A DNA stretch of 37,059 nt from Verrucomicrobiota bacterium (GTDB lineage: Bacteria; Verrucomicrobiota; Verrucomicrobiia; Verrucomicrobiales; Akkermansiaceae), in contig JAURPJ010000035.1 of the NCBI GenBank assembly GCA_030835305.1, positions 1-37,059 of the forward strand, written 5' to 3'. The translations under genes were made by a program, and so were the position numbers. The stretch's first letter is position 1. Each line of letters begins with the position of its first letter. Shown one piece after another: positions 10,249 to 27,173 of this stretch. The notes under the pieces are model-generated. The model had not been told where the DNA came from and made no database searches. It saw nothing but the letters and a program-made list of their open reading frames with translations.

Positions 10249-12972
10249 ATGAAATCCTGGCTGCTTCTCCTAACCCTTTCCCAACTGGCGCATGCCGGGA
10301 TCATTGGTTCCTGGTCGCTTAACAAAGAATTCTTTAACAACCAAAAACTCCAACCGGAAGGAGAGGCGCAGGAAGCCCCGGAGTTCGACACCGAAGACAA
10401 CCTTATATTCGACTCGAAGCAGCATGTCCTCCTTCCTGAGGAATCTGCCAAGAAACTCGCACTTCAGAAATTTGCCATCGAAGCACGCGTCCGAATCGAC
10501 CAACCCCAAAAATGGGGATCCATCCTGAGCTATAGTCAAGACAATGGCAGCTACGAGCGTGGCTGGCTGCTCGGATTCAATGACTCGCACTTCTCCTTCC
10601 GGCTCTCCACCGGCGGAAGACTTCTCGAAGTTGCAGCTCCCGAACCCTTCGAACCCGGCGAGTGGAATCACCTCTACGCAAGCTATGATGGCAAAGTCAT
10701 GCGACTTCATTTGAATGGCCTTCTCGTGGGCTCGCGAACAGTCGCCGGACCCGTCGTGCTACCCGACATCCCCACCCCCTTTGTCATCGGCGCCTACAAG
10801 GACGCAGACGAATTCTATCCCATCAACGGGCGCATCGAATGGCTCAAATTTCACGACTCCCTGCCCACCCCTAAAGAACTCGCGAGCATCGCCAAAGAAT
10901 CCGCCGCCGTGCCCTTTTCAGTTCGCCCTGCAGTTCGCTTTCTTTCTCCGGGCCGTGCCCTCCTTTTTTGGGAAGCGAGCCACCCCGGCAAAGCGGTCGT
11001 CGGATATGGGACCAGCCGTAAGCTTGGCAGTATCATCGAGTCAGATTCACGCGACCTTCGCCATGAAGTTGTTCTCGAAAACCTAAAGCCTCACACCCGC
11101 TACTCCTACCGGATTAGCTCCACCACCGAAAACGGCCAGAAATTCAGCCCCCTGTATGAATTCGACACCAGCATGAACTACATGCCGGCGCCCACTCCCG
11201 ACACCAGCCACCCACTCGCAGCGGACTATCTTCAAGACCTCGCCGATCAACCCGGCTTCGCTGTCGTGGTGGGCTTATCCGACGGTTCGCTGGCCACGGC
11301 CATCGCGTCCCAGAGCCAACTCAATGTCACCGCTTTCGATGACGACCTTGAAAAGGTCAACTCGCTCAGAAAAGAACTCACTGATCAAGGCCTTCACGGA
11401 TCCCGCATCACACTGCTCCACCTTCCAAATCTCACAAACATCCCCCTTACTTCCTGCGTCGGCAACCTGGTCTTCACCGAACGCGAAGCCTTACCGTGCC
11501 CCGGCGCAGAACTCACGCGCCTGACCCGCCCCGGAGGTCGTATCGCGTTTCCCGATGGCACCTTGACAACCCGACCTCCCCTTCCTGGATCCGGCGAATG
11601 GACCCATCAATACGGACCGCCTTCCAACACTGCTTATTCCGGCGAGCGCCTCGGGGGGAGTCAGGCAACCGAAGATCTCGAACTCCAATGGATCGGGCGA
11701 CCCGGAGCTGATTTTGGCATCGACCGCCAACCCCGTATGTCCGCTCCACTGGCCACAAACGGTCGACTCTTCCACCAAGGCCTCGATCGACTCATGGCAG
11801 TGGATGCCTTCAATGGACAGATCTTATGGGGCATGGAAATTCCTGATCTCCGCCGGGTGAACATCCCCCACGATTGCGCCAACTGGTGTGCCGACAACGA
11901 TCACCTCTACGTTGTGGTCAAAGACCTTCTTTGGGTGCTTGATGGAAGCAGCGGCAAGAGAATCATAACCTTGAAACTGACCGCAAACCATCTCGAAACC
12001 CACGACTGGGGATACATCGCGCAAGAGAACGAAATCGTGATCGGCTCCTCGGTCCGGCTTGGAGCAGAGTTTAAAAAATACTTCGGTGATGCCTGGTATG
12101 ACAAGGTTGGCCGGGATTCCGACACCGCAAATGTCCTCAGTGACAATATCTTCGCTTACACCAAGTCCGACTGGAAGGGCGCCTGGTCTTACAGCCGAGG
12201 CCTCATCATCAACCCCACCATTTCACTTTCCAACGAACAGCTTTGTTTCCTCGAATGCCGTAGTCCCGACCTTAAAAAAGAGAGCTCGGGTCGAGAGGCC
12301 ACCCGCAGCCTTTGGAAAGACATCCACGCGGTTTGCCTTGACGCGACCACCGGAAAAGTCATTTGGGAAAAGCCCTTCCCTTCAACCCTGCTCCGCACCG
12401 AGACCAAAGGATTCATTCAGGTTTCCTATGGCGCCATGACCAGCGAGGGATTTCTTGTCACCCTTTCGGAGGGCGATACCAATGAGGCCGGCAAGCAGAC
12501 GGGAAAAGGCATATTCAGCTATCACTACTTTGATCTTAAAAATGGAGCTCTGCGATTCCAATCCCAAACCCCGTGGCGCACCAATCACCACGGCTCACAC
12601 ATCTCCCACCCCGTTGTTTACGAAGACCGGGTCTACACCGACCCCACCGGGATCTCCCTCCCCAACGGCAAGCTCCTCGACCACAAATTTGGGCCCCGGG
12701 AAGGGTGCTCGGCCGTCGTCGGAACCAGCTACGGGCTCCTTCTTCGGGGAATCGATCGCTGCCTCACCTTTTGGTCAATTGACCAAAAAAAAACCACCCA
12801 CTGGCCGAGACTCCGCCCCTCCTGCTGGCTCAGCTTCCTTCCCGCCCAGGGACTATTCCTCGCCCCGGAGGGTGGAGGGGGGTGCTCCTGCGGTGGTTGG
12901 ATGGAAACCTCCCTCGCCTTTATTCCCAGGAACAATTCGGGGATTCCCGAAACGACCCCGTCCAAGAAGTAG
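10249..12972 (+). CDS. Exported multidomain protein: LamG, FN3-like, methyltransferase-like, PQQ propeller (907 aa)
   Basis: A signal peptide (about 1-16, ending AHA) leads into a LamG/concanavalin-like domain (about 60-215; GEWNHLYASYDG and LHLNGLLVGS). Next come an FN3 or phosphatase-N-like domain (about 222-307; NLKPHTRYSYRISS), a Rossmann-like stretch resembling SAM methyltransferases (about 325-445; VVVGLSDGSLATAIA, then TRPGGRIAF), and a PQQ-type beta-propeller (about 455-905; DAFNGQILWG, DATTGKVIWEKP). It ends with a cysteine-bearing segment (C879, C881, GGWMETSLAF). Similar large PQQ proteins are common in PVC bacteria, but their function is unknown. The methyltransferase-like part is probably structural, because SAM is not expected outside the cytoplasm. 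It starts 12 bases after the DUF1080 gene, suggesting an operon. Confidence 0.8.
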   Translation: MKSWLLLLTLSQLAHAGIIGSWSLNKEFFNNQKLQPEGEAQEAPEFDTEDNLIFDSKQHVLLPEESAKKLALQKFAIEARVRIDQPQKWGSILSYSQDNGSYERGWLLGFNDSHFSFRLSTGGRLLEVAAPEPFEPGEWNHLYASYDGKVMRLHLNGLLVGSRTVAGPVVLPDIPTPFVIGAYKDADEFYPINGRIEWLKFHDSLPTPKELASIAKESAAVPFSVRPAVRFLSPGRALLFWEASHPGKAVVGYGTSRKLGSIIESDSRDLRHEVVLENLKPHTRYSYRISSTTENGQKFSPLYEFDTSMNYMPAPTPDTSHPLAADYLQDLADQPGFAVVVGLSDGSLATAIASQSQLNVTAFDDDLEKVNSLRKELTDQGLHGSRITLLHLPNLTNIPLTSCVGNLVFTEREALPCPGAELTRLTRPGGRIAFPDGTLTTRPPLPGSGEWTHQYGPPSNTAYSGERLGGSQATEDLELQWIGRPGADFGIDRQPRMSAPLATNGRLFHQGLDRLMAVDAFNGQILWGMEIPDLRRVNIPHDCANWCADNDHLYVVVKDLLWVLDGSSGKRIITLKLTANHLETHDWGYIAQENEIVIGSSVRLGAEFKKYFGDAWYDKVGRDSDTANVLSDNIFAYTKSDWKGAWSYSRGLIINPTISLSNEQLCFLECRSPDLKKESSGREATRSLWKDIHAVCLDATTGKVIWEKPFPSTLLRTETKGFIQVSYGAMTSEGFLVTLSEGDTNEAGKQTGKGIFSYHYFDLKNGALRFQSQTPWRTNHHGSHISHPVVYEDRVYTDPTGISLPNGKLLDHKFGPREGCSAVVGTSYGLLLRGIDRCLTFWSIDQKKTTHWPRLRPSCWLSFLPAQGLFLAPEGGGGCSCGGWMETSLAFIPRNNSGIPETTPSKK

Positions 12973-13037
12973 CTACCCTCTTTGCATAACAATTGACCGG
13001 GCCCCATCCTCCGAGTCTCAAGCCAAATCGTATCCCA

Positions 13038-14381
13038 ATGCGCCACCCAGCTCTCCTACTTCTCATACTTGGCACATTTTGCGCTGCCGATATCTGGCCC
13101 ACTTATCGGCATGACAATCGACGCAGTGGAGTTTCTTCCGTCCCATTGAAACTCCCCCTCACCGAAGCCTGGATGCACGACGGAGGACCTCCCCAGCAAG
13201 CTTGGACCGGACCAGCGAAGTGGGACGCCTTCTCCGGTAATGAAGGCCTCCAGTCGATGCGTAATTTCGACCCATGTTATTTCACCACCGCCGCCCATGA
13301 CCTCATTTACTACGGATCTTCATCCGACAATGCCGTTCATTGCCTCAAAGCCTCCACGGGGGAAGAACAATGGCATTACTTCGCCAATTCGTCCGTCCGC
13401 TTCCCGCCCACCATCGTCGACGAAATCGCTTGGTTTGGCTCGGACGATGGATTTGTTTACTGCACCAATGCCCTAACCGGAAAACCACTCTGGAAGAAGC
13501 AAGCCGCCCCATCCGACCGGCTCATTCCCAGTAATGGCAAACTCATCTCTCCCTGGCCCGTCAGAACCGGGATCACCATTGAAGACGGTCGCGCTTTTTT
13601 CGCGGCCTCACTCCTGCCATGGAAGACCTCTTACCTCTGGTGCATCGATGCAAAAACAGCGGATCAAAAATACCTGACCGAACACCAAGGGGTCACTCTC
13701 CAGGGTGCCATGCTCGCAGGCAACGAACGCCTCTATATTCCACAGGGCCGGGCGGCGCCCATCACCCTGAACCAGAAGGACGGCAAAAAGACAGGAACCA
13801 TCGGACAAGCCGGAGGCGTTTTCTGCCTTCTCACGGAAGACGATCAACTGATCGCGGGGCCGCCCAATCAGAAGCAAAGAGATCAGCAACTCCGACTTGC
13901 CGATCCCGATTCTGGCAAAAGTCTCACGACTTTCAACAACACCACCCGGGTGGTCGTGAACCAAGGGAAAGCCTATCTGCATTCCGTCGACAAACTTCAG
14001 TGCCTCGATCTCACGCGCAAGCGGCAGCTCGAAAATCAACTCGCCTCCCAGAGCACCGCTCTCAAAAAACTTGACCCGAAAATCGAAACAAATCTCCCGA
14101 AAATTGAAGCCCTCAAAAAAGAGATCTCCTCGATTCAAGCTCAAGTTAAAGCCTGCCTCATCTGGAGCATTGAGCACCCCGCGCCCTTTGAACTTGTCGT
14201 CGCCGGAGACCAACTCATTGTCGGCCTCGATAACCGGGTCACCATCCTGGACACCAAATCCGGCAAGTCCCTTTGGGAGCACAAGGTTTCGGGAAAGGCA
14301 TACGGGCTCACCCCAGCCGAGGGCCGCCTCGTTGTCTCCACTGATCTCGGCCACATCCACACTTTTCATTCGAAACCGTGA
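13038..14381 (+). CDS. Exported PQQ-like beta-propeller protein with coiled-coil insert
   Basis: ATG 13038 gives a signal peptide (about 1-17, ending FCAA) and then WPTYRHDNRRSG, the usual opening of PVC PQQ-propeller proteins. Propeller blades are seen as CLKASTGEEQWHY, CTNALTGKPLWKK and DTKSGKSLWEHK. A Lys/Glu-rich helical stretch (about residues 333-375, around KKLDPKIETNLPKIEALKK) interrupts the propeller and is probably a coiled coil. A longer frame from 12993 has an unsuitable N-terminus. Its TGA overlaps the GTG start of the next gene. It probably binds or scaffolds another envelope protein; no catalytic site is seen. Confidence 0.85.
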   Translation: MRHPALLLLILGTFCAADIWPTYRHDNRRSGVSSVPLKLPLTEAWMHDGGPPQQAWTGPAKWDAFSGNEGLQSMRNFDPCYFTTAAHDLIYYGSSSDNAVHCLKASTGEEQWHYFANSSVRFPPTIVDEIAWFGSDDGFVYCTNALTGKPLWKKQAAPSDRLIPSNGKLISPWPVRTGITIEDGRAFFAASLLPWKTSYLWCIDAKTADQKYLTEHQGVTLQGAMLAGNERLYIPQGRAAPITLNQKDGKKTGTIGQAGGVFCLLTEDDQLIAGPPNQKQRDQQLRLADPDSGKSLTTFNNTTRVVVNQGKAYLHSVDKLQCLDLTRKRQLENQLASQSTALKKLDPKIETNLPKIEALKKEISSIQAQVKACLIWSIEHPAPFELVVAGDQLIVGLDNRVTILDTKSGKSLWEHKVSGKAYGLTPAEGRLVVSTDLGHIHTFHSKP

Positions 14382-15439
14382 AGCATCTTCTGATCTTTCT
14401 TTGGGTAACCGCTTCGTCCCTCGCTTGTCAGGTCCCGGTCTTTCGCTACGCTCTCGAGCGGTGGCAAGCCGACCCCTTCCGGCTTCAGCTCATTCATCAA
14501 GGTGAAGCGCCATCGGAGTTGTCGGTCGAGCCAAAGAATCTCAACCTCGAGTTCGAATCACTCGACATGGACAAGCTCACCCCGAAGGAGCGCTTCGCCG
14601 TTGTGGGACTCGAGAAACTTACCGTGTATCCCGCATATCTTCTCCACCCTCCGGAAAGCTGGGAAAACAACGAACCTCTCGTCTTCCCGGGCACCAAATC
14701 AGCGCTCGATGGCATCCTTGATTCTCCTCTCCGCCAGCGCATCAAAAACGATCTCCTAGAAGGACAATCCACGGTCTGGGTTTTCGTCGAAGGCTCTGAT
14801 AAAGCCGCCAACGAAGCCGCCTTCAACCTCCTAGACAGCACCCTCAAGAAAGCCAACCAAGCAATTCAAATTCCCGAAGGAGTCATTCAGGCCGATCAAG
14901 TCGGAAAGGTGGGTGAAGACATCAATCTCGACGACGTCCTCCGCTCATCCATTCCGCTCAAGATTTCGTTCAAGATCGAACGAATCAATCACAACGATCC
15001 CGCCGAACAAACCTTCCTCCGCATCCTCACCGCCAACCGCTACTCTCCCCCCGAAGAACCACTTGTCGTTCCCGTCTTTGGTCGGGGCCGCACCCCCGGC
15101 CCACTCCTCGGAAGCACCATCACAACAGAAACCATCATAACCGCCTGCGAATACCTCTGCGGCGCCTGCTCATGTCAGGTCAAAAGTGGCAATCCCGGTT
15201 ATGACCTCCTCTTTCAGGCCAACTGGCAGGAGAAACTCCAATCCGGCCTCGTCGTCGTCGACAAATCACTCCCCACGCTCCTTCCCTCTCTCAACGACGG
15301 ACCGCCAACTGAACCGGAGTCACCACCGGAAAAAACCGCCCTCAATTCCTACCGTTTCAACCTCCCTTTACCCTTGGTAATCGCCATCCCCCTGATCCTC
15401 ATTCTGGGCACGATTTTCATCCTCAAAAAATCCAAATAA
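14378..15439 (+). CDS. Cys-rich envelope protein with C-terminal membrane anchor, unknown family
   Basis: The GTG start overlaps the previous stop (GTGA). After a signal peptide (about 1-16) the mature part begins C17-Q-V-P-V-F-R-Y-A-L-E-R-W, a striking motif I associate with uncharacterised PVC proteins. A Cys cluster C257-x3-C261-x2-C264-x-C266 lies in CEYLCGACSCQVK. A single hydrophobic segment (about 328-348) and a KKSK tail anchor the C-terminus with most of the protein outside the cytoplasm. The cluster suggests metal binding or thiol chemistry, but this is inference. It sits between a PQQ propeller and an FtsX-like permease and is probably a partner of that exporter. Confidence 0.75.
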   Translation: MKHLLIFLWVTASSLACQVPVFRYALERWQADPFRLQLIHQGEAPSELSVEPKNLNLEFESLDMDKLTPKERFAVVGLEKLTVYPAYLLHPPESWENNEPLVFPGTKSALDGILDSPLRQRIKNDLLEGQSTVWVFVEGSDKAANEAAFNLLDSTLKKANQAIQIPEGVIQADQVGKVGEDINLDDVLRSSIPLKISFKIERINHNDPAEQTFLRILTANRYSPPEEPLVVPVFGRGRTPGPLLGSTITTETIITACEYLCGACSCQVKSGNPGYDLLFQANWQEKLQSGLVVVDKSLPTLLPSLNDGPPTEPESPPEKTALNSYRFNLPLPLVIAIPLILILGTIFILKKSK

Positions 15440-15496
15440 CTCCCTCCGCGCCTTGGCGTGAGCCCTCCAAACAAGCATCCCGTTTCATCTCCCGTC

Positions 15497-16708
15497 ATGC
15501 TTCTTCAAGAAATCAAACACCGAAAGTTCAACTTCATCATCGCGACCCTCGCCGCAACCGCTGCCATTTGTATCTGGCTCGCCGCCCGGGAGAGCATGAC
15601 CGACTTTGACCGGACCACCGAAGCCCAGCTCGAAAAGCTTCAGACAGAGACCAAAGCCGAGATGACACAACTCGAGAACGACATCCGCAAGACCATGAAG
15701 GGCCTTGGCTTCAATGTCTTTCTCTTTCCCAAAGGGGAAGAGCTTTGGGAAATCAAAGAGCGGGGCTACGCCGAAACAACACTCCCGGAAGACTCCGTTC
15801 ACAAACTGGCTGAAAGTGGCATTGTTACCGTCAACCACCTCCTTCCCCAACTCTCAAAACGAATCCGCTGGAAGGAGCAAAACCGCTCCATCCTCCTCGT
15901 CGGAGTCGAGGGACAAGTCCCCATCGCCCACCGTTCCAAAAAGAAGCCCATCATGAATCCTCTCGCTCCCGGAACGATCAATCTGGGATACGACCTCCAC
16001 CAATCTCTCGGTCTCAAAAAAGGAGATCAAGTCAACCTCAACGGTCAAACCTACACCCTGACCCAAACCCACCCTCCCCGAAACTTTCGTGATGACAGCT
16101 CCGCCTGGATCCACCTCGACGAAGCCCAAGGAATCTTCGACCAACCCGGCCGGATTAATGCCATCCTTGCTCTGGGCTGCAACTGCGCCTCCATCGACCG
16201 GCTTGGCGAGATCCGCTCGGAGATTTCGAAGATCCTGCCCGATGTCCAGATCATTGAACTTGGCTCCTCCGCCATGGTGCGTGCCGAAGCCCGCAACAAA
16301 GCCGGTAACCGTGCCCGCAATGCCAAAGCCACCATTCTCGAAAGCCGCGAAGCCGCACGTGCCGAGCGAGCCCGCTTTTCATCCGTCCTCTCTCCACTCA
16401 TCGCCAGCGGTGCTTTCCTAGTCCTCGCCTACCTCGCCTTCGCCAACGTCCGCGAGCGCCTCCCCGAAATCGGCACCCTCCGCGCCATCGGCGTCAGCCA
16501 CCTCAAAATTGCCCTCACCCTTCTCGCCCGCGCTAGCCTGATCGGCCTTCTCGCCACCGCCCTCGCATTCTTTTGTTCCAAAGCACTCACTTTCCCCCTC
16601 CCCTCCATCGCTTGGATTCTCATTCCCCTTGTCAGCGCCGCAGCCGCATGGCTCCCCACCGTCTACGCCCTCACCCGGAGCCCGGTGTCAATTCTGAGAC
16701 ACGACTAA
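15497..16708 (+). CDS. FtsX/LolE-type ABC transporter permease
   Basis: The topology is that of MacB/FtsX permeases: one N-terminal span (about 12-31), a large external domain (about 35-305, with a coiled-coil stretch at 40-66), then three C-terminal spans with the family segment ANVRERLPEIGTLRAIGVS. I chose ATG 15497, giving 403 aa; the earlier in-frame GTG at 15458 adds an unlikely N-terminus. The external domain carries C228-N-C230. No ATPase gene follows; the matching LolD-like ATPase is on the other strand at 21243-21908. Such systems move lipoproteins or use mechanical force on envelope partners rather than importing solutes. Its substrate is unknown. Confidence 0.85.
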   Translation: MLLQEIKHRKFNFIIATLAATAAICIWLAARESMTDFDRTTEAQLEKLQTETKAEMTQLENDIRKTMKGLGFNVFLFPKGEELWEIKERGYAETTLPEDSVHKLAESGIVTVNHLLPQLSKRIRWKEQNRSILLVGVEGQVPIAHRSKKKPIMNPLAPGTINLGYDLHQSLGLKKGDQVNLNGQTYTLTQTHPPRNFRDDSSAWIHLDEAQGIFDQPGRINAILALGCNCASIDRLGEIRSEISKILPDVQIIELGSSAMVRAEARNKAGNRARNAKATILESREAARAERARFSSVLSPLIASGAFLVLAYLAFANVRERLPEIGTLRAIGVSHLKIALTLLARASLIGLLATALAFFCSKALTFPLPSIAWILIPLVSAAAAWLPTVYALTRSPVSILRHD

Positions 16709-17402: not shown

Positions 17403-18035
17403 TCACTCCATCATCACAACGCGATCCGCGATCGCTTCCGCCTCTTTTTTTGAGTGGGTAACATGCAAAGCCGTCACCCCTTCCACCTCGATCATCTTTC
17501 GAATCACGCCAAGCACCTCTTCGTGACGCGCCTCGTCCAAGCCCGTTAAGGCCTCATCCAGGCAAAGCAACCGGGGCCTCAGCGCGAGCGCCCGCCCCAG
17601 TGCCACCCGGCGGGCCTCTCCGCCCGAAAGCTTGCCGGGAGAGCGTTCCAAAAGATTCTCCAGGCCGAGATCTCTCGCCAACCCCTCCACTCGCTGCATG
17701 ATCTCGACAGAATTCCAACCATGAAGCCTCGGGCCGAACTCCAGCTGTTCTCTTACTTTTAATGAAGGAAAAAGAGCCACATCCTGCGGGACCAAACCAA
17801 TACCCCGCGCACCCGGTGGCAAGTTTGTCACCTCATCTCCGCCCAAAATAATCCGCCCGCCAGCCGGCCCTCGACGCAAGCCACAAGCCGTCTCCAGAAG
17901 AGTCGTCTTTCCGCAACCGCTCGGCCCCATCAGGGCAACGCATTCGCCCTCGGCAATCTCGAGCGAAAACGGAGGGAGAACGAATTGCCCGGCCTGCACC
18001 GTCACTTCCTCTAAAACCAACATCGCTTTTTTCAC
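17403..18035 (-). CDS. modC: Molybdate ABC transporter ATP-binding protein
   Basis: This ATPase (210 aa) has Walker A GPSGCGKTT (37-45), the Q-loop region VPQDVALFP, the signature LSGGEARR, and Walker B LLCLDEALTGLD followed by the switch His in HVTHSKKE. It lacks the C-terminal molybdate-binding MOP domain of classical ModC, so it probably has no molybdate feedback of its own. The GTG start overlaps the modB stop; an ATG five codons later is the alternative. It is the last gene of the operon, and the modA/modB neighbours support the substrate. Confidence 0.85.
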   Translation of the reverse strand: MKKAMLVLEEVTVQAGQFVLPPFSLEIAEGECVALMGPSGCGKTTLLETACGLRRGPAGGRIILGGDEVTNLPPGARGIGLVPQDVALFPSLKVREQLEFGPRLHGWNSVEIMQRVEGLARDLGLENLLERSPGKLSGGEARRVALGRALALRPRLLCLDEALTGLDEARHEEVLGVIRKMIEVEGVTALHVTHSKKEAEAIADRVVMME

Positions 18036-19021
18036 ACCGTCCCCCCTCTCCCCGCCAGAAATCTCACCACCAAGAGCGTCGAAACCGCCAACATAATCAT
18101 CAGTAATGAAAGCGCCGCCGCCCCCGGCAAATTTCCAATATTAATCTCCAAAAAGACCGAAGTCGCCAAGACCTCGGTGCGCCCTCGCGTCGCTCCTGCA
18201 AAAATTAAAATCGGCCCAAACTCTCCCAACGCCCGCGCCCACGCCATCGTCCCCGCCGCCACCATCCCCTTCCCGGCCAATGGCAGAACGACGCGCATGA
18301 AAGCCTGCCCTCGATTGCAACCCAGCGTCATCGCCACGTCCTCGTAGCGCGGACTGATTTGATCAAAAGTCGTTCGCATCGTTCTTACCGCAAAGGCCGC
18401 CGCCACCGGAAACTGCGCCAGCACCACTCCCAACGGATGAAAGGTCATCGGCAGACCCACCTCGCTCACGACTTCCTCCAATGAATGATCGCTCCCGCCA
18501 AACGCCCAGGCGATGAACCCAAAAACAATCGCTCCCCCCGTAAAAAACCGAGGCACGATTCCATTCTCGCCTCGCCCAAAACCCCAACCCGCCGCCGCCA
18601 ACGCCCCTCCCGCCAAAATCCAACAGGAAGCCGATGGTGAAATCCGGTTAAACAAAATTAATAGGCTTAAGCCTACAATCAGAGGCGGCAACAAGATTGG
18701 AATGTCTAGGAGAGTATCGATCAGAGCTCTCCCCCGGAAACGATACCGCGATAAAAGATAACCCACCGGAACTGAAACCAAAACCGAGAGAATCGCAGTC
18801 GCGGTGCACGTCACAAAAGTCAACTTGATCGAATGCTGAATATTGGGATCCTTTAAAACCTCTCCAGCTTGACGCCATGAGACCGTCAGGACATTCGCAC
18901 CCACCAGCAAAAGTAAAACTCCGAGGTAGGCAGCTACCGCAAACACCAAAAACAGAAGAAAAGGCCACTCCGGCCTCACCCTCCATATCTTTGCTTGATT
19001 GCCACCTTCCTTAACCATCAC
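18032..19021 (-). CDS. modB: Molybdate ABC transporter permease
   Basis: This is a binding-protein-dependent permease with N- and C-terminal hydrophobic spans and the EAA loop (EDVAMTLGCNRGQAFMRVVLP, abridged to its core AMTLGCNRG). It is 329 aa, about 100 longer than usual ModB. The extra length lies after SLLILFNRI as two added hydrophobic segments (about 130-170) before the conserved GVVLAQFPVAAAF block. The insert probably adds two membrane spans. It follows the ModA fusion by six bases and overlaps modC. Confidence 0.88.
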   Translation of the reverse strand: MMVKEGGNQAKIWRVRPEWPFLLFLVFAVAAYLGVLLLLVGANVLTVSWRQAGEVLKDPNIQHSIKLTFVTCTATAILSVLVSVPVGYLLSRYRFRGRALIDTLLDIPILLPPLIVGLSLLILFNRISPSASCWILAGGALAAAGWGFGRGENGIVPRFFTGGAIVFGFIAWAFGGSDHSLEEVVSEVGLPMTFHPLGVVLAQFPVAAAFAVRTMRTTFDQISPRYEDVAMTLGCNRGQAFMRVVLPLAGKGMVAAGTMAWARALGEFGPILIFAGATRGRTEVLATSVFLEINIGNLPGAAALSLLMIMLAVSTLLVVRFLAGRGGTV

Positions 19022-19027
19022 CCAAAT

Positions 19028-20515
19028 TTAGCGCTCAAGCCTCCACTGAAAACCCAACTCCTCAAATCTCCCTCTGGCTTGTCCGTCGGTAAGGAATTCC
19101 CCCAACCGCTTCATTAATTCAGGATAAGGGGTTTCTTTTCCAACCGCAAACGGCTGCTCGGCAAACGCCAACTCATCGTTCAACTCCAAAATTTCATGTT
19201 CCTCCAGGGTGACAGGACTCGCCAGGGCATTGCTCCGATAAATCAGAGCCGCGTCAAGGGAGCGGGCCTGCATCGCTGAGACAAGGTCATCTCCCTTCGC
19301 AACCTTCACTGAGACCCTACCTTCCAATATCCCGGTCAAACCGCGTCTCTCTAGCATGATTCGCGTCAACTCTCCCAACGCACTTTTCTCACCATCACAG
19401 ATCCCGAGTTTCAGCCCCTCCCTACTCAAATCAGCCAATCCTCGGAGCTCCAGCGGATTCCCCTTCCGGACCAAAAGCACGATCTCATTACCCGTCATGA
19501 CCTGGCCTGCAAAAAAGCGATCCTGCACCATCATCAGAAATTTGGTATCGCACGCAAAATACCCTGCCGGATTCGCCCCGGCCTCCATCTGAGCCACCAA
19601 GGTTCCGCAACCCTCAAAGACGGTATTCACCCGGCACCCTTCACGGTCTTCAAACTCACGGATGCGCCCCTGTATCGCTGGCCTGAGCATCGAGCCCGAA
19701 AACAGAGTCACATCGGGCACCTGCGACCACGCATCACCCTCATCCGGAACCACAAAGCCTAAGTCCAAAAAAGTCTTTCTTCCCCGGTCTCGTGCAGTGA
19801 CAAAGCGGGCAAAGTGCAACGCCCTAGTCGCATCTTTGCACGAAGTCAGCACTCCAATTGATGCCCGCTTCGCCCTCCTGGAAAACTCGGGAACCGCGAT
19901 CCATTCCACCTCGGCGAAGTTCCCCGCCACCGCATCCCAGGCGAGAGAAACATCCACAGCACCAGTCGCCACGTCCTCGACGATGGCATTCACCGTCGGT
20001 TTGGTCACCACCACGTTGGGGGTCACTTTATCAATCAAACCTTCCATCTCCAATACCTTCCAGGTGAACTTACCCACCGATGCCGACTTCTCGGCCAGGG
20101 ATATTTTCAAAGCTTCCTGGCCCAAATCCGAGAGCTCTTGCAATCCTTTCGGATTCCCCTTCGAAACCACCAGGCCCGCCGTCAATCTCGCCGCCGGAAT
20201 CGCCTCCTTCATCAATCCCTTCTCTCTCGCAAAATCGATATAACTCTGATCCGCCGGTAAATAAAGATCCCCACCCGCAACTTCAAGCTGACTGGCCAAA
20301 GCCCCTGAACCACCGAACTGGAGATTCACCTTAACCCCAAACTCCTCCTCATATTGACGGGCAATTTCACTCATGGGCCTTCGCAATCCCGCCGCGCAAT
20401 GGACAAGTAAATCCTCTTTACCCGGCTCATTGACACGATCGCCCTTTCTCAACCACCTGAGGGCACCTCCAAGCAAGCCCACGAGAATTGCAATGACAAG
20501 AGCAGGTCGTTTCAT
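19028..20515 (-). CDS. modA: Tandem ModA-ModA molybdate-binding protein fusion
   Basis: The product (495 aa) is about twice the length of ModA. After a membrane anchor or signal (about 5-20) the first domain (about 36-262) has CAAGLRRPMSEIA and FGGSGALASQLE, the oxyanion-binding features of ModA. A second, diverged copy (about 268-495) starts LFSGSMLRPAIQGRIREFE and has FEGCGTLVAQMEAG in the same position. Both halves have the later KGNP and G-x-V/SLA-type segments. It feeds molybdate (or tungstate) to ModB-ModC. Two linked binding domains may raise local capture or have different ions. Its ATG overlaps the TGA of the E1-like gene upstream. Confidence 0.85.
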   Translation of the reverse strand: MKRPALVIAILVGLLGGALRWLRKGDRVNEPGKEDLLVHCAAGLRRPMSEIARQYEEEFGVKVNLQFGGSGALASQLEVAGGDLYLPADQSYIDFAREKGLMKEAIPAARLTAGLVVSKGNPKGLQELSDLGQEALKISLAEKSASVGKFTWKVLEMEGLIDKVTPNVVVTKPTVNAIVEDVATGAVDVSLAWDAVAGNFAEVEWIAVPEFSRRAKRASIGVLTSCKDATRALHFARFVTARDRGRKTFLDLGFVVPDEGDAWSQVPDVTLFSGSMLRPAIQGRIREFEDREGCRVNTVFEGCGTLVAQMEAGANPAGYFACDTKFLMMVQDRFFAGQVMTGNEIVLLVRKGNPLELRGLADLSREGLKLGICDGEKSALGELTRIMLERRGLTGILEGRVSVKVAKGDDLVSAMQARSLDAALIYRSNALASPVTLEEHEILELNDELAFAEQPFAVGKETPYPELMKRLGEFLTDGQARGRFEELGFQWRLER

Positions 20516-21246
20516 ATTTTGATCTTTGAACAGTGATCACAAGCCGGATCCCTGACAAGGCGCACTTTCTTCATCCGCATCCGCTGCGCATCAATATGAA
20601 TCATCTGATCCAACGCTGGATCGGAAAAGCGGGTCAAAAGCTTGATCCCTTCCAAAACCGCAATCTGGGCCACCATTGCCGAGACCGCCCCAATCACCGG
20701 AAACCGCCTTTTCCAGTATGCCGGTGGCTCCTTCACCAAACACCCAAGGCAAGTCGATTTGCCCGGATCCACCACCATGACATGCCCTTCCATTGAGCAC
20801 ATCGCACCATCGACAAACAACTTCCCCTGCCTCATCGACTCGCGATTCATCAAAAGACGTTCTTTGAAAAGAGGGGCGCACGAAAAGACGATATCCGTCC
20901 GCTCCACGAGCCCGACAACATTCTCCTCCGAAATATTCTCGCCCACTGATTCGATTTTCAGGTCCCGGTTGAACCGCCTCAAAGTCTCCGCAGCCTGGTC
21001 GTGCCGCTCACTCCCCAAGCCTTCGTGAGTCATCAGAATCTGACGGTTCAAATCATCCGCTCTCAGTTCGCCCCCGTGCGCCAAAATAATCCGCCCCACT
21101 CCCGCCGCTGCGAGCGACAATGCCAGCGGTCCCCCGAGCCCGCCCACCCGCGAAACCAACGCAGAAGCATTCTTAAGTTTCTCCTGGGCCTCCCTGCCAA
21201 AGCCAGGAACATCCTCCTGCCAAGTATAATAATCCTCGTACTTCAC
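20512..21246 (-). CDS. MoeB/ThiF/HesA-type E1-like adenylyltransferase
   Basis: The 244-residue protein has the E1 fold: nucleotide loop RVGGLGGPLALSLAAAGVG, the arginine-finger region LNRQILM, a conserved D-V-F-S segment for the acidic site, and two zinc Cys pairs (CLGC and CDHC). Such enzymes adenylate the C-terminal Gly-Gly of MoaD or ThiS. Its position directly before molybdate transport genes favours a MoeB-like role in molybdopterin synthesis. Start is GTG 21246, overlapping the preceding ATPase stop. ThiF-like activity is the alternative. Confidence 0.85.
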   Translation of the reverse strand: MKYEDYYTWQEDVPGFGREAQEKLKNASALVSRVGGLGGPLALSLAAAGVGRIILAHGGELRADDLNRQILMTHEGLGSERHDQAAETLRRFNRDLKIESVGENISEENVVGLVERTDIVFSCAPLFKERLLMNRESMRQGKLFVDGAMCSMEGHVMVVDPGKSTCLGCLVKEPPAYWKRRFPVIGAVSAMVAQIAVLEGIKLLTRFSDPALDQMIHIDAQRMRMKKVRLVRDPACDHCSKIKI

Positions 21247-21908
21247 GAGCGAATCCTTCCTTCCTCCAAAGTCAGCACCCGATCTGCTTTTCCAAGAGCA
21301 CGAGGATCATGGGTCACCACCAGCACCGAGCCTCCGTCTTCAACAAATTGACGCAGCCCCTTAACAACCACTTCCGCGCTCATATCATCGAGATTCCCCG
21401 TCGGTTCATCGGCTAATACCAGTGTGGGTCGATGAACCAGAGCCCGGGCCAACCCCACCCGCTGTTGCTCTCCGGCACTCAACTTCCCCGGAACATGACT
21501 CGCTCTTCCTTCTAGCCCCAAAAAAGTCATCAATTGCGTCGCCCTATCGTCATCTCCCCCCGCTGCGAGAATATTGGCGCGAATATCGAGGTAAGGAATC
21601 AACCTGGCATCTTGAAATACCAATCCGATCACCTCTTTGCGAAAGCGTGTTTTGCCGGCCCCGCTCAGCTTCGAGACCTCGGCCCCGGCAACATGAATCG
21701 ACCCCTCATCCGGCTTCAACAGACCGGCCACCAGATAGAGGAGAGTCGATTTCCCCGCCCCACTTGGACCACGCAGTGCAACAAATTCGCCTTCGCCAAT
21801 GGCAAGCGAAACACCATCAAGAGCAACCACCTTTTCATAGGATTTCGACAAACCCTGCAAGCGAAGCACCGGGGGCCCCTTCACATTCGGTTGTTTCTCT
21901 TCACTCAC
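21243..21908 (-). CDS. LolD/MacB-type ABC transporter ATP-binding protein
   Basis: Walker A GPSGAGKS, signature LSAGEQQR, Walker B LVLADEPTGNLD and the switch VVTHDPRAL place it in the LolD/MacB/FtsE ATPase group. I chose GTG 21908 (221 aa), because upstream codons to 22004 overlap the protease gene and are not conserved-looking. The FtsX-type permease it should serve is not next to it; the only one in the window is at 15497-16708 on the other strand. It lies 59 bases after the protease and overlaps the MoeB-like gene. Confidence 0.88.
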   Translation of the reverse strand: MSEEKQPNVKGPPVLRLQGLSKSYEKVVALDGVSLAIGEGEFVALRGPSGAGKSTLLYLVAGLLKPDEGSIHVAGAEVSKLSGAGKTRFRKEVIGLVFQDARLIPYLDIRANILAAGGDDDRATQLMTFLGLEGRASHVPGKLSAGEQQRVGLARALVHRPTLVLADEPTGNLDDMSAEVVVKGLRQFVEDGGSVLVVTHDPRALGKADRVLTLEEGRIRS

Positions 21909-21967
21909 GGCAGACCAAACTCCTATTTTCTTCAGAGTGACCCAAGAGAAAGATGCAAAAATTTCTC

Positions 21968-23752
21968 CTAGCGCTCCAAACCCGGATCGAGCCAAAGCCC
22001 CCAATCGGAGCCGCTCCCATCATTGGTGGGATCAACCACTAACTCCAAAGTCTTCACACCCGAAACGTCAACCGAGTAGTTGGCCAAGCCACCGCCCTTG
22101 ATCACTTTGGACTTCCAGAGGGTCTTACCATCACCTTTGATCTCAAACCGGACCGAACCACGCTTTCCGGCAGCCATTCCCGCTTTTCCGCGAAACATTT
22201 TCCACTTCTCCCCCAGGTCGTAGCGATGATTGGCCGGGGCATGGCCATAGATCCCGGTTGTAAAGATCTCACCGCCTGCTTCCAAAAGGAATGGAGGTTC
22301 TGGTAAAAAATTATAGGCAGGCCGTCCCCACCCCACCTTGGCCGCAGATGCCTGGAATTTAGTCAGGGCCACCAAGGTCTGCTTCCCGTCGGCTTGAGCA
22401 GGTGATTTTGTCGCCTTTCGACCGCGCTCTAAAATTTTTTCGGCGAGCTCCTGCATCTTGCCTTGCGGAAATTGTCGTGCTTCGGCCACCGCTGCTTCCC
22501 GATCTCCATTCCGAAGCGCTTCGATAAACGGAGCCATCGCCAAACGAATTTGAAAAGTCCCCAGATCCGGAGTCCCGTCGCGCCCCACCGAGTAGGGATA
22601 CTTGAACTTCGTCTGCGACATCCAGCCTCCCGTGGAACCATTCACATGCAGCGGAATCAAGCGCAACTCGCCCGACTTTCCGGGAGGAAGCGCATCACAG
22701 GAAAGACTAAAATTCCCATCCGCATCCGGCACCGCAGTTGCTGTTGTGGCATTATAATCACCTCCACCATCCGGATCGAAATATGCCACCACTGCATAGG
22801 CAGGAGGATTGGCCTCCAGCTTCCCTGAAACTTGGATCGCCTTCCCCTTTGACGTGATCTTCAACTCCTCGATCCTCGAGTTGACCGGCAAATTCATCCC
22901 TTTGACCGAACCCGAAAACTGGGGGTGCGAAGCCAATCTCAAGGCATGCGCCAGCGTCAAAAAAGATCCCTTCCCCTCTCCTCGCAATTCATCGCCATAA
23001 CTCCGGTTGCCGGAACCCATCAGCGCCGTCCCCCGCAGTGCTTCATCCGGCCGCTCCTTGCAATGAGGAAGCCCCAGGGCATGCCCGAGCTCGTGGGCAA
23101 TCCCGCCAATGAAAATCGAGTTGTGCTTCCCCAACGAGATTCGGCCATATTGCCCATCCCGCATCATCGGCTCCTTCTTTGCCAAATTTAGAACATCCAA
23201 CTCGGGCGAATCCAATTGCCAGGCCGTTCCCCCTTGAAAGGTGCCTCCGGCATAGTAGGGAGACTTGTGGGTGAAGACCAACTTATCCTCATCCCATTGG
23301 GCCAGATTGCAAAAAATGACCAAGGTCTCCTTGTTTCCATCGATTCCCTTGTCGGACAATACCGGCAGACATTCCCCTTTGATCTCATTCCCCGAAGACA
23401 TTCCATATTCGTCTTCCGGCTTCTTTCCTTCGATTAAATGAATCTCAAGCTTTTTGCCTTCCATTGGAAGATTGATTGACCTGGGCCCGAATCCCAACCT
23501 CTCCAATTCGTTCCCGTAAAAATCCCGGATATGCGTCATGATCCGGGTCAATCGTTCCTCATACTTTTCCGGACCAGGGCGACCTTTTGGAGTCCAAAGT
23601 ACAAAATGAAGGGTTCGCTCTTCTTTCCGGGCATTCTGTTCATGCCACCCATCAAGAATCTTGAGAGCCGCCGCAGCTTTTTCAGGTTCGCCCGGAACCT
23701 GCCCGTGAACCAGCGCCATCGAAAATGTCAGAATTGCTGCAAATCGCATCAT
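21968..23752 (-). CDS. Secreted metzincin-type zinc protease with NPCBM domain
   Basis: A signal peptide (about 1-17) precedes a catalytic domain with the extended zinc motif HELGHALGLPH (220-230) and a downstream Met-turn candidate ALMG (243-246), marks of metzincins such as matrixins. A middle beta-sandwich (about 300-390, with DPDGGGDYNATT) resembles extracellular linker domains. The C-terminal part (about 460-594: KVGWGRPAYNFLPEP, GIYGHAPANHRYDLG, VDPTNDGSGSDWGLWLDP) matches the NPCBM carbohydrate-binding family. It would be a surface or secreted protease targeted to glycan. It is divergent from the M24 peptidase across about 80 bases and may head the minus-strand operon. Confidence 0.88.
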   Translation of the reverse strand: MMRFAAILTFSMALVHGQVPGEPEKAAAALKILDGWHEQNARKEERTLHFVLWTPKGRPGPEKYEERLTRIMTHIRDFYGNELERLGFGPRSINLPMEGKKLEIHLIEGKKPEDEYGMSSGNEIKGECLPVLSDKGIDGNKETLVIFCNLAQWDEDKLVFTHKSPYYAGGTFQGGTAWQLDSPELDVLNLAKKEPMMRDGQYGRISLGKHNSIFIGGIAHELGHALGLPHCKERPDEALRGTALMGSGNRSYGDELRGEGKGSFLTLAHALRLASHPQFSGSVKGMNLPVNSRIEELKITSKGKAIQVSGKLEANPPAYAVVAYFDPDGGGDYNATTATAVPDADGNFSLSCDALPPGKSGELRLIPLHVNGSTGGWMSQTKFKYPYSVGRDGTPDLGTFQIRLAMAPFIEALRNGDREAAVAEARQFPQGKMQELAEKILERGRKATKSPAQADGKQTLVALTKFQASAAKVGWGRPAYNFLPEPPFLLEAGGEIFTTGIYGHAPANHRYDLGEKWKMFRGKAGMAAGKRGSVRFEIKGDGKTLWKSKVIKGGGLANYSVDVSGVKTLELVVDPTNDGSGSDWGLWLDPGLER

Positions 23753-25164: not shown

Positions 25165-25614
25165 TTAGATCAAGTCACGTCGTTTCAACTCATCAATCCG
25201 TCCGGCAGCGTATGCCCCAAAGACGGCTTTAATTTCATCTCGGACGCGCCGGAAAAAGTCGAGTCGTTCCTCCTCTGTTCCTGGAGCGTGAGCAGGATCA
25301 TCAAAGGGAAAGTGGTGACGATTCACTTGGCCGGAAAACGAGGGACATTCTTGATCGACTTTGCCACACACCGTAATGACCGTCTCAACATCCTGATTAA
25401 GGAATTCATCAAGATGTTTCGACCGGTGATCGGCAATATCAATTCCAATTTCAATCAGGACCTGAATTGCAAGTGGATGGACATAGCCGGCGGGTTTGGA
25501 GCCTGCACTTCTTACGATGAAATCTTCCCCAAGTTCTTTCGTGAGAAGCCCCTCGGCAAGGTGGGAACGACAGGAGTTACCTGTGCATAGAATGAGAATG
25601 GTTGGTTTTTTCAT
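25165..25614 (-). CDS. arsC: Arsenate reductase, thioredoxin-coupled (LMW-PTP family)
   Basis: The product (149 aa) has the phosphatase-like P-loop C10-TGNSC15-R16 and the redox pair C83 and C90 (TVCGKVDQECPSF), which mark the thioredoxin-linked ArsC type. The acid D105 lies in FPFDDPAHAPG. It reduces arsenate to arsenite in the cytoplasm for export by the Acr3 pump encoded just upstream (19 bases). It is the last gene of the arsenic operon. Confidence 0.95.
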   Translation of the reverse strand: MKKPTILILCTGNSCRSHLAEGLLTKELGEDFIVRSAGSKPAGYVHPLAIQVLIEIGIDIADHRSKHLDEFLNQDVETVITVCGKVDQECPSFSGQVNRHHFPFDDPAHAPGTEEERLDFFRRVRDEIKAVFGAYAAGRIDELKRRDLI

Positions 25615-25633
25615 ATCTAATCTTTATGAAAAG

Positions 25634-26692
25634 TTAAGAACTTGGATCGCTTCGAAAGATTCGGCCTTTAAGCCAGAATGAGACATGCACAAGCCCGATC
25701 AGCGCCGGGACCTCGACCAAAGGTCCAACTACGGCCGCGAATGCGACACCGGAATCGATTCCAAAGACAGCAATGGCAACAGCGATGGCCAACTCAAAAT
25801 TATTTCCCGATGAAGTGAAGGCGATGCTGGCCGACCGAGGGTAGTCGGCCCCCAATTTTGCCGCCATCAGAAAACTTACCAGGAACATCGCCGCAAAGTA
25901 AATCAGGAGCGGTAGAGCAATGCGAAGAACATCAAGCGGCAGACTCACAATGGCGTCCCCCTTGTAGGTAAACATGACTACGATCGTAAATAAGAGTGCC
26001 GCCAGGGTAAGAGGCGAAATCCTTGGGATGAAAACCTGCTCATACCACTCGAGGCTTTTCACGCGAACTAGGATCAAGCGGCTTAAAATTCCCGCGGCAA
26101 ATGGAATCCCCAGGTAGGTCAGGACGCTTTGAAAAATATCGGCCATCACCACATCAACCACGACCCCCTCCAGGCCGACATACTCTGGAAGTAATGTAAC
26201 GAAGAGCCAGGCATAAGCACTATAGAGAAGGATCTGAGCGATGCTATTCAACGCAACCAGTCCCGCCGCATATTCGCTACTTCCTTTGGCAAGGTCATTC
26301 CACACCAGGACCATCGCAATGCATCTGGCGAGTCCCACCAGAATCAATCCCACCATGTATTCCGGTTGGTCGCGCAAAAAAAGGACCGCCAAAACCCACA
26401 TCAGAATGGGTCCGATTACCCAATTTTGAAAAAGAGACAGACTCAAAATTCGGGTGTTGGAAAACACCTTGGGGAGTTCGCCATACCTAACCTTGGCCAG
26501 CGGAGGATACATCATCAGGATGAGGCCAAAAGCAATGGGTAGATTAGTCGTCCCAACAGTTAACGGTGCAAAGAAGGACGAGGGATCGGGAATGACCAGG
26601 CTCCCAAGCGCAACACCCAAAAGCATCGCTACAAAAATCCAGACGGTAAGATACCGATCCAGGAATGACATATTTTTAGAGATCGTATTCAT
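25634..26692 (-). CDS. acr3: Arsenite efflux permease (ACR3 family)
   Basis: The product is a 352-residue, about ten-span membrane protein with the ACR3 signature [13 protein letters not shown] (essential cysteine C124) and [15 protein letters not shown] near the C-terminus. It exports arsenite using the proton gradient. A longer frame reaches 26830 but overlaps the DUF6428 gene; ATG 26692 starts the family-standard region [12 protein letters not shown]. It lies 16 bases after the DUF6428 gene and 19 before arsC. Confidence 0.95.
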
Positions 26693-26708
26693 GGTATTAA
26701 CAACATTT

Positions 26709-27173
26709 TTATTCGTGAGAGCAGCAATATTCAGACTTTTGCGCTTTGACAGGAATTGCGGGCAATCCGCAAAATTCAGTAGTAAGGAACTCAGTGGGTT
26801 TATGGGCCAGTTGCAGGACCACAGAGTCATCTGAAATTTCTGTCCCCTGAATCGTATATTGGGAAATCACATTCCTTTCATATTCAATTTCAACGGGAAT
26901 GGATTCGTCCGGGAGATACGGTTTGGCAATCTCAAGAATCGAGGCCATTTTTTCCACCTCAATCCGGTGATCATAATCTTCCCCCACCCATACTTGAAGC
27001 TGGCAGGTGACTCGTTCGCGCAGCTTGCCGCCACAGTCTAGAAAAGTCTTTTGGATACGTCCGACCTCTGTCACGTGGAAGGACACTGGCACGGTTGCGC
27101 CATCCGGAAGTACAATTCGGAAGTCTTTCTCGGAATCCTCAGCAAGAAGCATTTTAAGCTCAGATAATTTCAT
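26709..27173 (-). CDS. DUF6428 family protein in arsenic operon
   Basis: The product (154 aa) is a soluble protein with [14 protein letters not shown] and TFLDCGG segments and the cysteine-bearing end SEYCCSHE. It matches the DUF6428 type found next to arsR in many ars operons. The function is unknown; the vicinal C-terminal cysteines suggest arsenite or metal binding, an inference. The ATG overlaps the arsR stop (ATGA), and acr3 follows. Confidence 0.75.

Follow-up and report, generated by a model that had tools for sequence, protein, structure and literature searches.

The window, by which we mean the whole stretch of DNA analysed (37,059 nt), harbored two convergent runs of genes. On the minus strand, from position 22004 down to 17403, genes for a LolD-like ATPase, an E1-like protein, a tandem ModA-like binding protein (ModAA), a ModB-like permease, and a short ModC follow one another closely, adjacent genes either overlapping by 4 bases or being separated by 6, and the plus-strand run (10249–16708) encodes two propeller proteins, the protein tmC, and an FtsX/LolC-E-like permease. 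The following features were identified (basis in brackets):

19028–20515, minus strand: tandem ModA-like binding protein ModAA, 495 aa (ORF, Pfam, TIGR01256, AlphaFold2)
20444–20515, minus strand: N-terminal hydrophobic helix of ModAA, residues 1–24 (AlphaFold2 helix 3–24 and a simple heuristic)
19730–20413, minus strand: half 1 of ModAA, residues c. 35–262, with a ModA-like pocket and Cys40 (alignment, model)
19031–19726, minus strand: half 2 of ModAA, residues c. 264–495, with Cys at the Ser39 and Ala58 positions (alignment, model)
19607–19609, minus strand: codon of Cys303, the Ser39 equivalent of half 2 (Cys in 67/67 rows; 17/17 in the motif-free set)
19550–19552, minus strand: codon of Cys322, the Ala58 equivalent of half 2 (Cys in 67/67 rows; 17/17 in the motif-free set)
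18032–19021, minus strand: ModB-like permease, 329 aa, with 229 aa in E. coli ModB (family searches)
17403–18035, minus strand: ModC-like ATPase without MOP domain, 210 aa (family searches, length)
20512–21246, minus strand: divergent E1/MoeB/ThiF-like protein (family searches, alignment)
21243–22004, minus strand: LolD/FtsE-like ATPase, true start uncertain (family searches)
14378–15439, plus strand: tmC, apparently exported, comprising a thioredoxin-fold domain and, at its C-terminus, a hydrophobic helix (profile, model)
15458–16708, plus strand: FtsX/LolC-E-like permease (Pfam; homologue scored against LolCE)
10249–12972, plus strand: prop1, Cys-rich PQQ-like propeller with a laminin-G domain (locus comparison, Pfam)
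12993–14381, plus strand: prop2, PQQ-like propeller protein (locus comparison, Pfam)

ModAA is encoded by a single ORF with an ATG start and zero internal stops, which Pfam family SBP_bac_11 matches in two separate regions (1e-70 overall). Comparison with TIGR01256 (modA) resulted in 101.4 bits for the whole protein against a cut-off of 62.5; in a genome search that scored the halves separately, half 1 reached 75.6 bits, above the cut-off, and half 2 reached 30.1, below it. ModAA was therefore classed as a variant among ModABC-type proteins, given that this family score is passed by half 1 and failed by half 2. The halves share 61 identities over 229 columns, 14.7 s.d. above 300 shuffles, and the AlphaFold2 model (mean pLDDT 92.1) revealed two ModA folds. 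Among the matches listed by VIA-align, half 2 corresponded to ModA 1wod (Z 22.2, rmsd 2.4, 220 residues) and half 1 to 4kd5 (Z 20.4, rmsd 2.5, 221 residues), these listings covering at most 50 of the 1000 chains compared, so that other families may match as well. In regard to its N-terminus, a simple heuristic predicted a membrane anchor lacking both a lipobox and an AxA site, as it did for 35 of 67 aligned rows, with a lipobox in 9 and a possible AxA site in 23. A frameshift or chimeric contig, which the preliminary description had named as one possible refutation of its ModA–ModA fusion in one chain, is ruled out by the uninterrupted ORF and because a separate assembly (L031, 95% identity) and 16 further genomes of the phylum encode the full-length fusion. 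Altogether, ModAA is a genuine tandem of two diverged ModA-fold domains, and the neighbours proposed along with it, namely ModB, a ModC lacking the MOP domain, and an E1-like enzyme, were all recovered. The absence of the MOP domain was deduced from the length of this ModC, since 210 aa, compared with 352 in E. coli, leave no space for it.

A survey of PVC genomes, as suggested in the preliminary description, revealed a wide distribution of the fusion. Within the phylum, 17 of 288 sampled genomes, the source genome included, encoded it in full length at 18 places, with 33–45% identity between the 16 other aligned phylum fusions and the window protein. A scan of named genomes led to 529 stretches detected by motif, 520 of which encode a relative according to tblastn, a number that does not imply the full fusion in each case. 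The best 80 of these 520 relatives, found partly by motif and hereafter called the 80 loci, belong to records labelled Verrucomicrobia, Planctomycetes, Lentisphaera, Omnitrophota, Poribacteria, Armatimonadetes, Hydrogenedentota, and others. One record labelled as a Flavobacteriaceae MAG (L100) carried the fusion together with FtsX, LolD, prop1, and tmC, possibly by mis-binning or transfer.

In a tree of 76 domains, which is unrooted, has a weak backbone, and used 21 of the 67 fusions, half 1 formed one group and half 2 another (100/100 each), canonical ModA formed a separate group (100/99), and two proteins consisting of half 1 only fell within the half 1 group. Genomes that we call Kiritimatiella-type possessed a related pair of domains, K1 and K2. 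K1 grouped with half 1, albeit weakly (83/77), and K2 formed its own group (100/99) apart from half 2; in E. coli ModA numbering, its position 58 was His in 9/9 rows and its position 57 Cys in 6/9. The pair occurred fused as K2-K1 (L019, L022, L025) or K1-K2 (L024) and as adjacent genes in L020, L023, L026, and L028; thus, half-1-like domains pair with an unlike second domain in several ways. Locus L026 (G245) displayed three consecutive ModA-like ORFs, the first of which is very divergent (end branch of 1.99 in the tree).

Pocket positions were numbered on E. coli ModA, with 12, 39, 152, and 170 mapped from the ligand residues S39, S66, V177, and Y195 named for Acinetobacter baumannii ModA (PMC11734730). 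The alignment of 67 rows consisted of the window protein and 66 of 78 listed fusion ORFs, 12 near-duplicates having been left out. In half 1, the Ser39 and Val152 equivalents were retained and position 9 was Cys in 67/67 rows; position 12 was Gly in 57/67 and Ser in 9/67, and position 170 was Trp in 57/67 and Tyr in 9/67, the window protein having Gly and Trp, respectively. The half-1-only protein of L021 (G086) agreed with canonical ModA at positions 9 (Ala) and 12 (Ser), unlike most fused half 1 domains. Half 2 carried Cys in place of the ligand Ser39, Met, Val, or Ile in place of Ser12, and Gly or Ala in place of Val152, each in 67/67 rows; the Tyr170 equivalent was retained in 62/67 and position 173 was Asn in 67/67. 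As a whole, the ModA ligand set is therefore not preserved in half 2, with S12, S39, and V152 lost and Y170 mostly retained. Its second invariant Cys, at position 58, lies outside the ligand residues named in the consulted part of the A. baumannii work and was treated as pocket-near only.

Since the search motif contains Cys303, the count for this residue among the 80 loci carries a bias; neither of the two search motifs covers Cys40 or Cys322, and a motif-free set of 17 possessed Cys303 and Cys322 in 17/17 and Cys40 in 14/17. For the 61 distant rows, in which the window and five close relatives were omitted, mean pairwise identity was 50% in half 1 and 49% in half 2, with 13 and 22 invariant columns, respectively. 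This equal conservation rules out a decayed second half, the other possible refutation considered in the preliminary description. Its view of two diverged halves agrees with the residue comparison, in which the two pockets differ, half 1 being ModA-like and half 2 Cys-bearing. Its suggestion that the protein binds two oxyanions, or Mo and W, was not borne out as worded, in view of the three replaced ligand residues and the second invariant Cys of half 2. Judged from its residues, half 2 seems more compatible with a thiol site than with another site for molybdate.

Across the 80 loci, homologs of the window genes were counted for ModB in 75, ModC in 69, ThiF in 52, LolD in 46, tmC in 45, FtsX in 43, prop2 in 36, and prop1 in 23, where 16 loci form one close group, many contigs end early, and labels reflect the best match to window proteins only. 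The order of these genes is reshuffled from lineage to lineage. Such a recurring set around ModAA points to an undescribed uptake system; among the titles listed by our literature searches in open-licence papers, none describes a fused ModA or this gene set, and these searches revealed no measured ligand either. The preliminary description had not mentioned the larger set, with tmC, LolD, FtsX, the propellers, and the MoaD-like protein. A Pfam search with 54 unlabelled neighbours matched 36 families, and among the 25 listed only four recurred, namely ThiF, rhodanese, and ceramidase, each in 3 members, and DNA_alkylation in 2. In some Verrucomicrobiales (L135, L136, and L163 in G187, G234, and G199), tmC and ModAA were found together, with a ModB homologue elsewhere in the genome. 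The fusion system directly neighbours Mod genes of the canonical type and a MoeB-like gene at L157 (G189) and L138 (G023); in G023, a single open frame of >500 aa matches ModA as well as ModB and perhaps represents a fusion of the two.

Other neighbours in the window do not seem to belong to the set. An arsenate reductase-like gene adjoins an ACR3-like gene, the latter named by reading of the sequence, near the operon at 25165–26830, and a link to arsenic genes was rejected with ArsC in 1/80 loci (the near-identical L031) and ACR3 in 0/80, many of these loci being incomplete. A putative metallopeptidase with an NPCBM domain is located directly upstream of the operon (21968–23752); it occurred in 8/80 loci and an M24 peptidase in 7/80, both within close relatives only, and these candidates were rejected as well. 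Finally, a defence system was discarded, the PADLOC matches being read as shared folds: the LolD-like ATPase matched mad3 at 5.9e-27, the FtsX-like protein two LolE_TM models (best 5.1e-5), and the window E1-like protein, weakly, E1-E2 models (best 1.6e-7), with zero PADLOC matches for ModAA or tmC.

The E1-like protein was aligned using 29 of 52 listed ThiF-like ORFs together with the window protein and E. coli MoeB, whose residues R14, N70, R73, K86, and D130 we take to be the active site. R73 was retained in 30/30 rows, and the other four were replaced in 30/30 (R14 by W, N70 by D, K86 by R, and D130 by P), so that the MoeB/ThiF active-site set is not preserved in this family and adenylation may therefore be lost or altered, judged from these residues. 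A ThiS/MoaD-like gene was found in 20 of 64 distant loci, usually adjoining the E1-like gene, and none was seen in the 37,059-nt window. The aligned MoaD-like proteins ended in Gly-Gly in 15/18 cases, three extending past it, and the one member scanned scored 23.3 bits with the ThiS family (cut-off 22.5). Elsewhere, the source genome revealed a stronger ThiF-family match, in a frame with one TGA, and two ThiS-family matches. Among fusion loci, the E1-like gene was present in 10/14 MoaC-positive versus 0/3 MoaC-negative cases (p = 0.051), a tally made by eye and too weak to rest on.

For tmC, there was no convincing Pfam match (E up to 1, one-off matches, the best at 0.00042 in 1/39 rows). Its model (pLDDT 83.5) displayed a thioredoxin fold at residues c. 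115–262, the matches listed within residues 114–281 having Z 8.4–9.3 and rmsd 2.1–3.3 over 88–116 residues, the best of these having Z 9.3, rmsd 2.3, and 99 residues. With the whole model, Foldseek placed the multi-thioredoxin-domain proteins ERdj5 and ERp57 first, with weak values (E 1.4e-4 and 8.8e-4; TM c. 0.2). In an alignment of 38 of 49 listed tmC ORFs and the window protein, Cys17, Cys264, and Cys266 were found in 39/39 rows and Cys261 in 12/39; the invariant cysteines are thus Cys17 and a CxC at 264–266, and the CxxC active site of thioredoxin was not found. The source genome contains a second, partial tmC-like match with two internal stops (G000:C115:49137-49604), perhaps a decayed copy.

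A profile search detected tmC in 32/288 genomes, namely in 26/26 with paired domains (17 with the fusion and 9 Kiritimatiella-type) versus 6/262 others (p = 1e-31, a value that overstates independence because the genomes are related). G259 was counted as paired, its two domains lying on different contigs, and the matches in G194 and G222 contain a stop codon and come as two pieces, respectively. Absences of tmC are less sure than presences, since the profile was derived from fusion-adjacent genes and at most six candidates per genome were scored. In G004, G015, G115, G145, and G194, tmC was either remote from the ModA genes or on a separate contig altogether; its link to the paired domains is thus more than operon linkage. 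Six genomes (G161, G201, G213, G229, G238, and G277) possessed tmC without a ModA-like match at E 1e-5. Two genomes, G190 and G086, harbored half 1 alone: the half-2 profile matched only half 1 there (85.6 and 75.9 bits), compared with 268.6–317 bits for true half 2 in three genomes, and the profile search found no tmC in either. Both half 2 and tmC were present in G187 and G199, which belong to the genus of G190, and G190 retains a ModB homologue (57% over the matched stretch) away from its half-1 gene. Thus, in these two cases of our sample, half 2 goes with tmC and half 1 can stay with ModB. Directly after the half-1-only ModA of G190, beside DNA polymerase I, lies a gene for a small, apparently exported protein that we read as rhodanese-like (L132:8770-9237).

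In regard to molybdenum, the source genome makes molybdenum cofactor, to judge from its matches to MoaC, MoeA, and molybdopterin enzymes, and the genome search found no ModA-like protein there besides the fusion, a third PF13531 match reading as an iron- or polyamine-type binding protein. One molybdopterin-oxidoreductase match (G000:C110:14140-15420) lies in a 917-aa frame with one TGA, perhaps a selenocysteine codon. MoaC was present in 14/17 fusion genomes versus 74/271 others (p = 8e-6). Canonical ModA, defined for these statistics by a TIGR01256 match of at least 120 bits, a threshold of our own, occurred among the 88 MoaC-positive genomes in 2/14 with the fusion versus 42/74 without it (p = 0.007), so that the two tend to be mutually exclusive in such genomes; they are not always alternatives, since G023 and G189 hold both. 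Shared ancestry may explain part of every one of these associations, and the statistics on MoaC, canonical ModA, and tmC rest on genome lists transcribed by hand. Three fusion genomes (G139, G214, and G029) were found without MoaC and MoeA, a MoaC-negative share (3/17) no different from that of genomes with canonical ModA (8/52), and MoaC and MoeA were not found in 6/9 Kiritimatiella-type genomes, here differing in MoaC from the 8/52 (p = 0.003). A reading in which the system strictly serves Moco is weakened by such Moco-less genomes. Weighing the MoaC association and the exclusion of canonical ModA against these genomes and against G023 and G189, a molybdate-class oxyanion is the likeliest ligand of half 1.

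Based on these results, we tentatively favour ModAA as the binding protein of a two-site ModABC-type importer, in which half 1 would serve as the oxyanion transport domain and half 2 would act together with tmC as a thiol domain, a reading in which our confidence falls just short of even. ModAA would be tethered to the membrane by its N-terminal helix. Half 1 would capture a tetrahedral oxyanion of the molybdate/tungstate type, as its conserved residues and the genome context suggest, dock on ModB, and deliver the oxyanion to ModB/ModC. The Cys pair of half 2 may form a switchable disulfide or a site for a soft metal or thiolated ligand, and half 2 may exchange thiol or ligand with the thioredoxin-fold membrane protein tmC, to which both its residues and the co-occurrence point. 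The whole would be part of the envelope system recurring in PVC and allied bacteria. The apparently incomplete ligand signature of half 1, with Ser12 and Tyr170 mostly changed, counts against this explanation.

An alternative that goes back to the preliminary description is a pair of oxyanion sites differing in affinity or preference (molybdate, tungstate) and feeding one ModBC, as SBD1 and SBD2 do in GlnPQ. The ModA fold of both halves and the Tyr170 equivalent kept by half 2 in 62/67 rows agree with it, as do the tandem domains of GlnPQ, which reportedly differ in specificity (PMC8025302, PMC11331510) and one structure of which (6h30) was a Foldseek match. We consider it unlikely, given that half 2 is without Ser12, Ser39, and Val152 and carries two invariant cysteines, and that tmC was absent from the search results for both half-2-less genomes, a link not to be expected if half 2 were simply another oxyanion site. 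Somewhat doubtful, too, is an importer that merely resembles ModABC and carries, instead of molybdate or tungstate, another substrate such as a metal-thiol complex, copper, or a different oxyanion, a view that overlaps with our favoured explanation on half 2. The excess of MoaC-less genomes among Kiritimatiella-type pairs, the canonical ModA additionally kept in G023 and G189, and the Cys-rich partners, including the CxC of tmC in 39/39 rows, speak for it; MoaC in 14/17 fusion genomes, the fusion as the only ModA-like protein found in the source genome, and the MoeB-like, MoaD-like, and E1-like genes adjoining the fusion in several genomes speak against it. Exported cysteines often make structural disulfides, and together with the mostly replaced ligand residues this would suit a half 2 that binds no ligand and serves only for structure or docking, its disulfide being fixed. 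Such a role appears quite improbable to us, since one of the cysteines occupies a ligand position, half 2 exceeds half 1 in invariant columns (22 vs 13 in 61 rows), and the K2 domains, which branch separately in the tree, possess His58 in 9/9 and Cys57 in 6/9 rows.

Compared with known systems, ModAA resembles ModA (TIGR01256/SBP_bac_11) with ModBC in the fold of both halves, the family score, the ModB/ModC neighbours, and Ser39 and Val152 of half 1, but differs in having two domains per chain, an apparent N-terminal tether, Cys in both halves, a changed Ser12 and Tyr170 in half 1, mostly changed ligands in half 2, and a ModC without MOP. With GlnPQ (6h30) it shares tandem binding domains serving one translocator, but the GlnPQ domains are joined to the transmembrane subunit, whereas ModAA is of the ModA class and a chain separate from ModB (18032–19021). 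In A. baumannii ModA, oxidation shifts the affinity for molybdate from 0.177 to 30 nM, and its C141-C189 pair, with the change in lobe B, is reported as unique to that species (PMC11734730). It provides a precedent for Cys-based redox tuning of ModA binding, from which ModAA differs in that its cysteines lie early in the domain, in the second domain, and are invariant across the sampled rows. By the ModA topology, the early cysteines of half 2 presumably lie in the lobe other than lobe B. As in MoaD/MoeB sulfur transfer and archaeal SAMP/UbaA, there is an E1-like protein, with a ThiS/MoaD-like gene in 20/64 distant loci, but this E1-like family differs at four active-site residues in 30/30 rows and none MoaD-like was seen in the window. 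Transporters of the LolCDE/MacB type likewise comprise a LolD-like ATPase and a LolC/E-like permease, but in the present set it is tmC, with its thioredoxin fold, that recurs as their partner.

More speculatively, and improbable as it stands in our estimation, PVC and allied bacteria could possess a hitherto undescribed envelope system in which the import of a molybdate-class oxyanion is coupled to chemistry of thiols or sulfur and a thiolated metal species (such as Mo-S, W-S, or Cu-S) is acquired or assembled. Its parts would be the two-site ModAA, tmC, the LolCDE-like ABC unit, the Cys-rich extracellular propellers, and, optionally, the MoaD/E1-like pair.

To our knowledge, molybdate-binding proteins have been taken as single-domain proteins with one oxyanion site. 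ModAA departs from this picture in a form that is widespread: its two sites are dissimilar, one being putatively thiol-bearing as judged from its residues, and genome-wide co-occurrence ties it to tmC. The natural relatives that possess half 1 only offer a built-in control for the role of the second domain, and ModAA thus gives a handle on a multi-gene envelope system that recurs in planctomycetes and verrucomicrobia.
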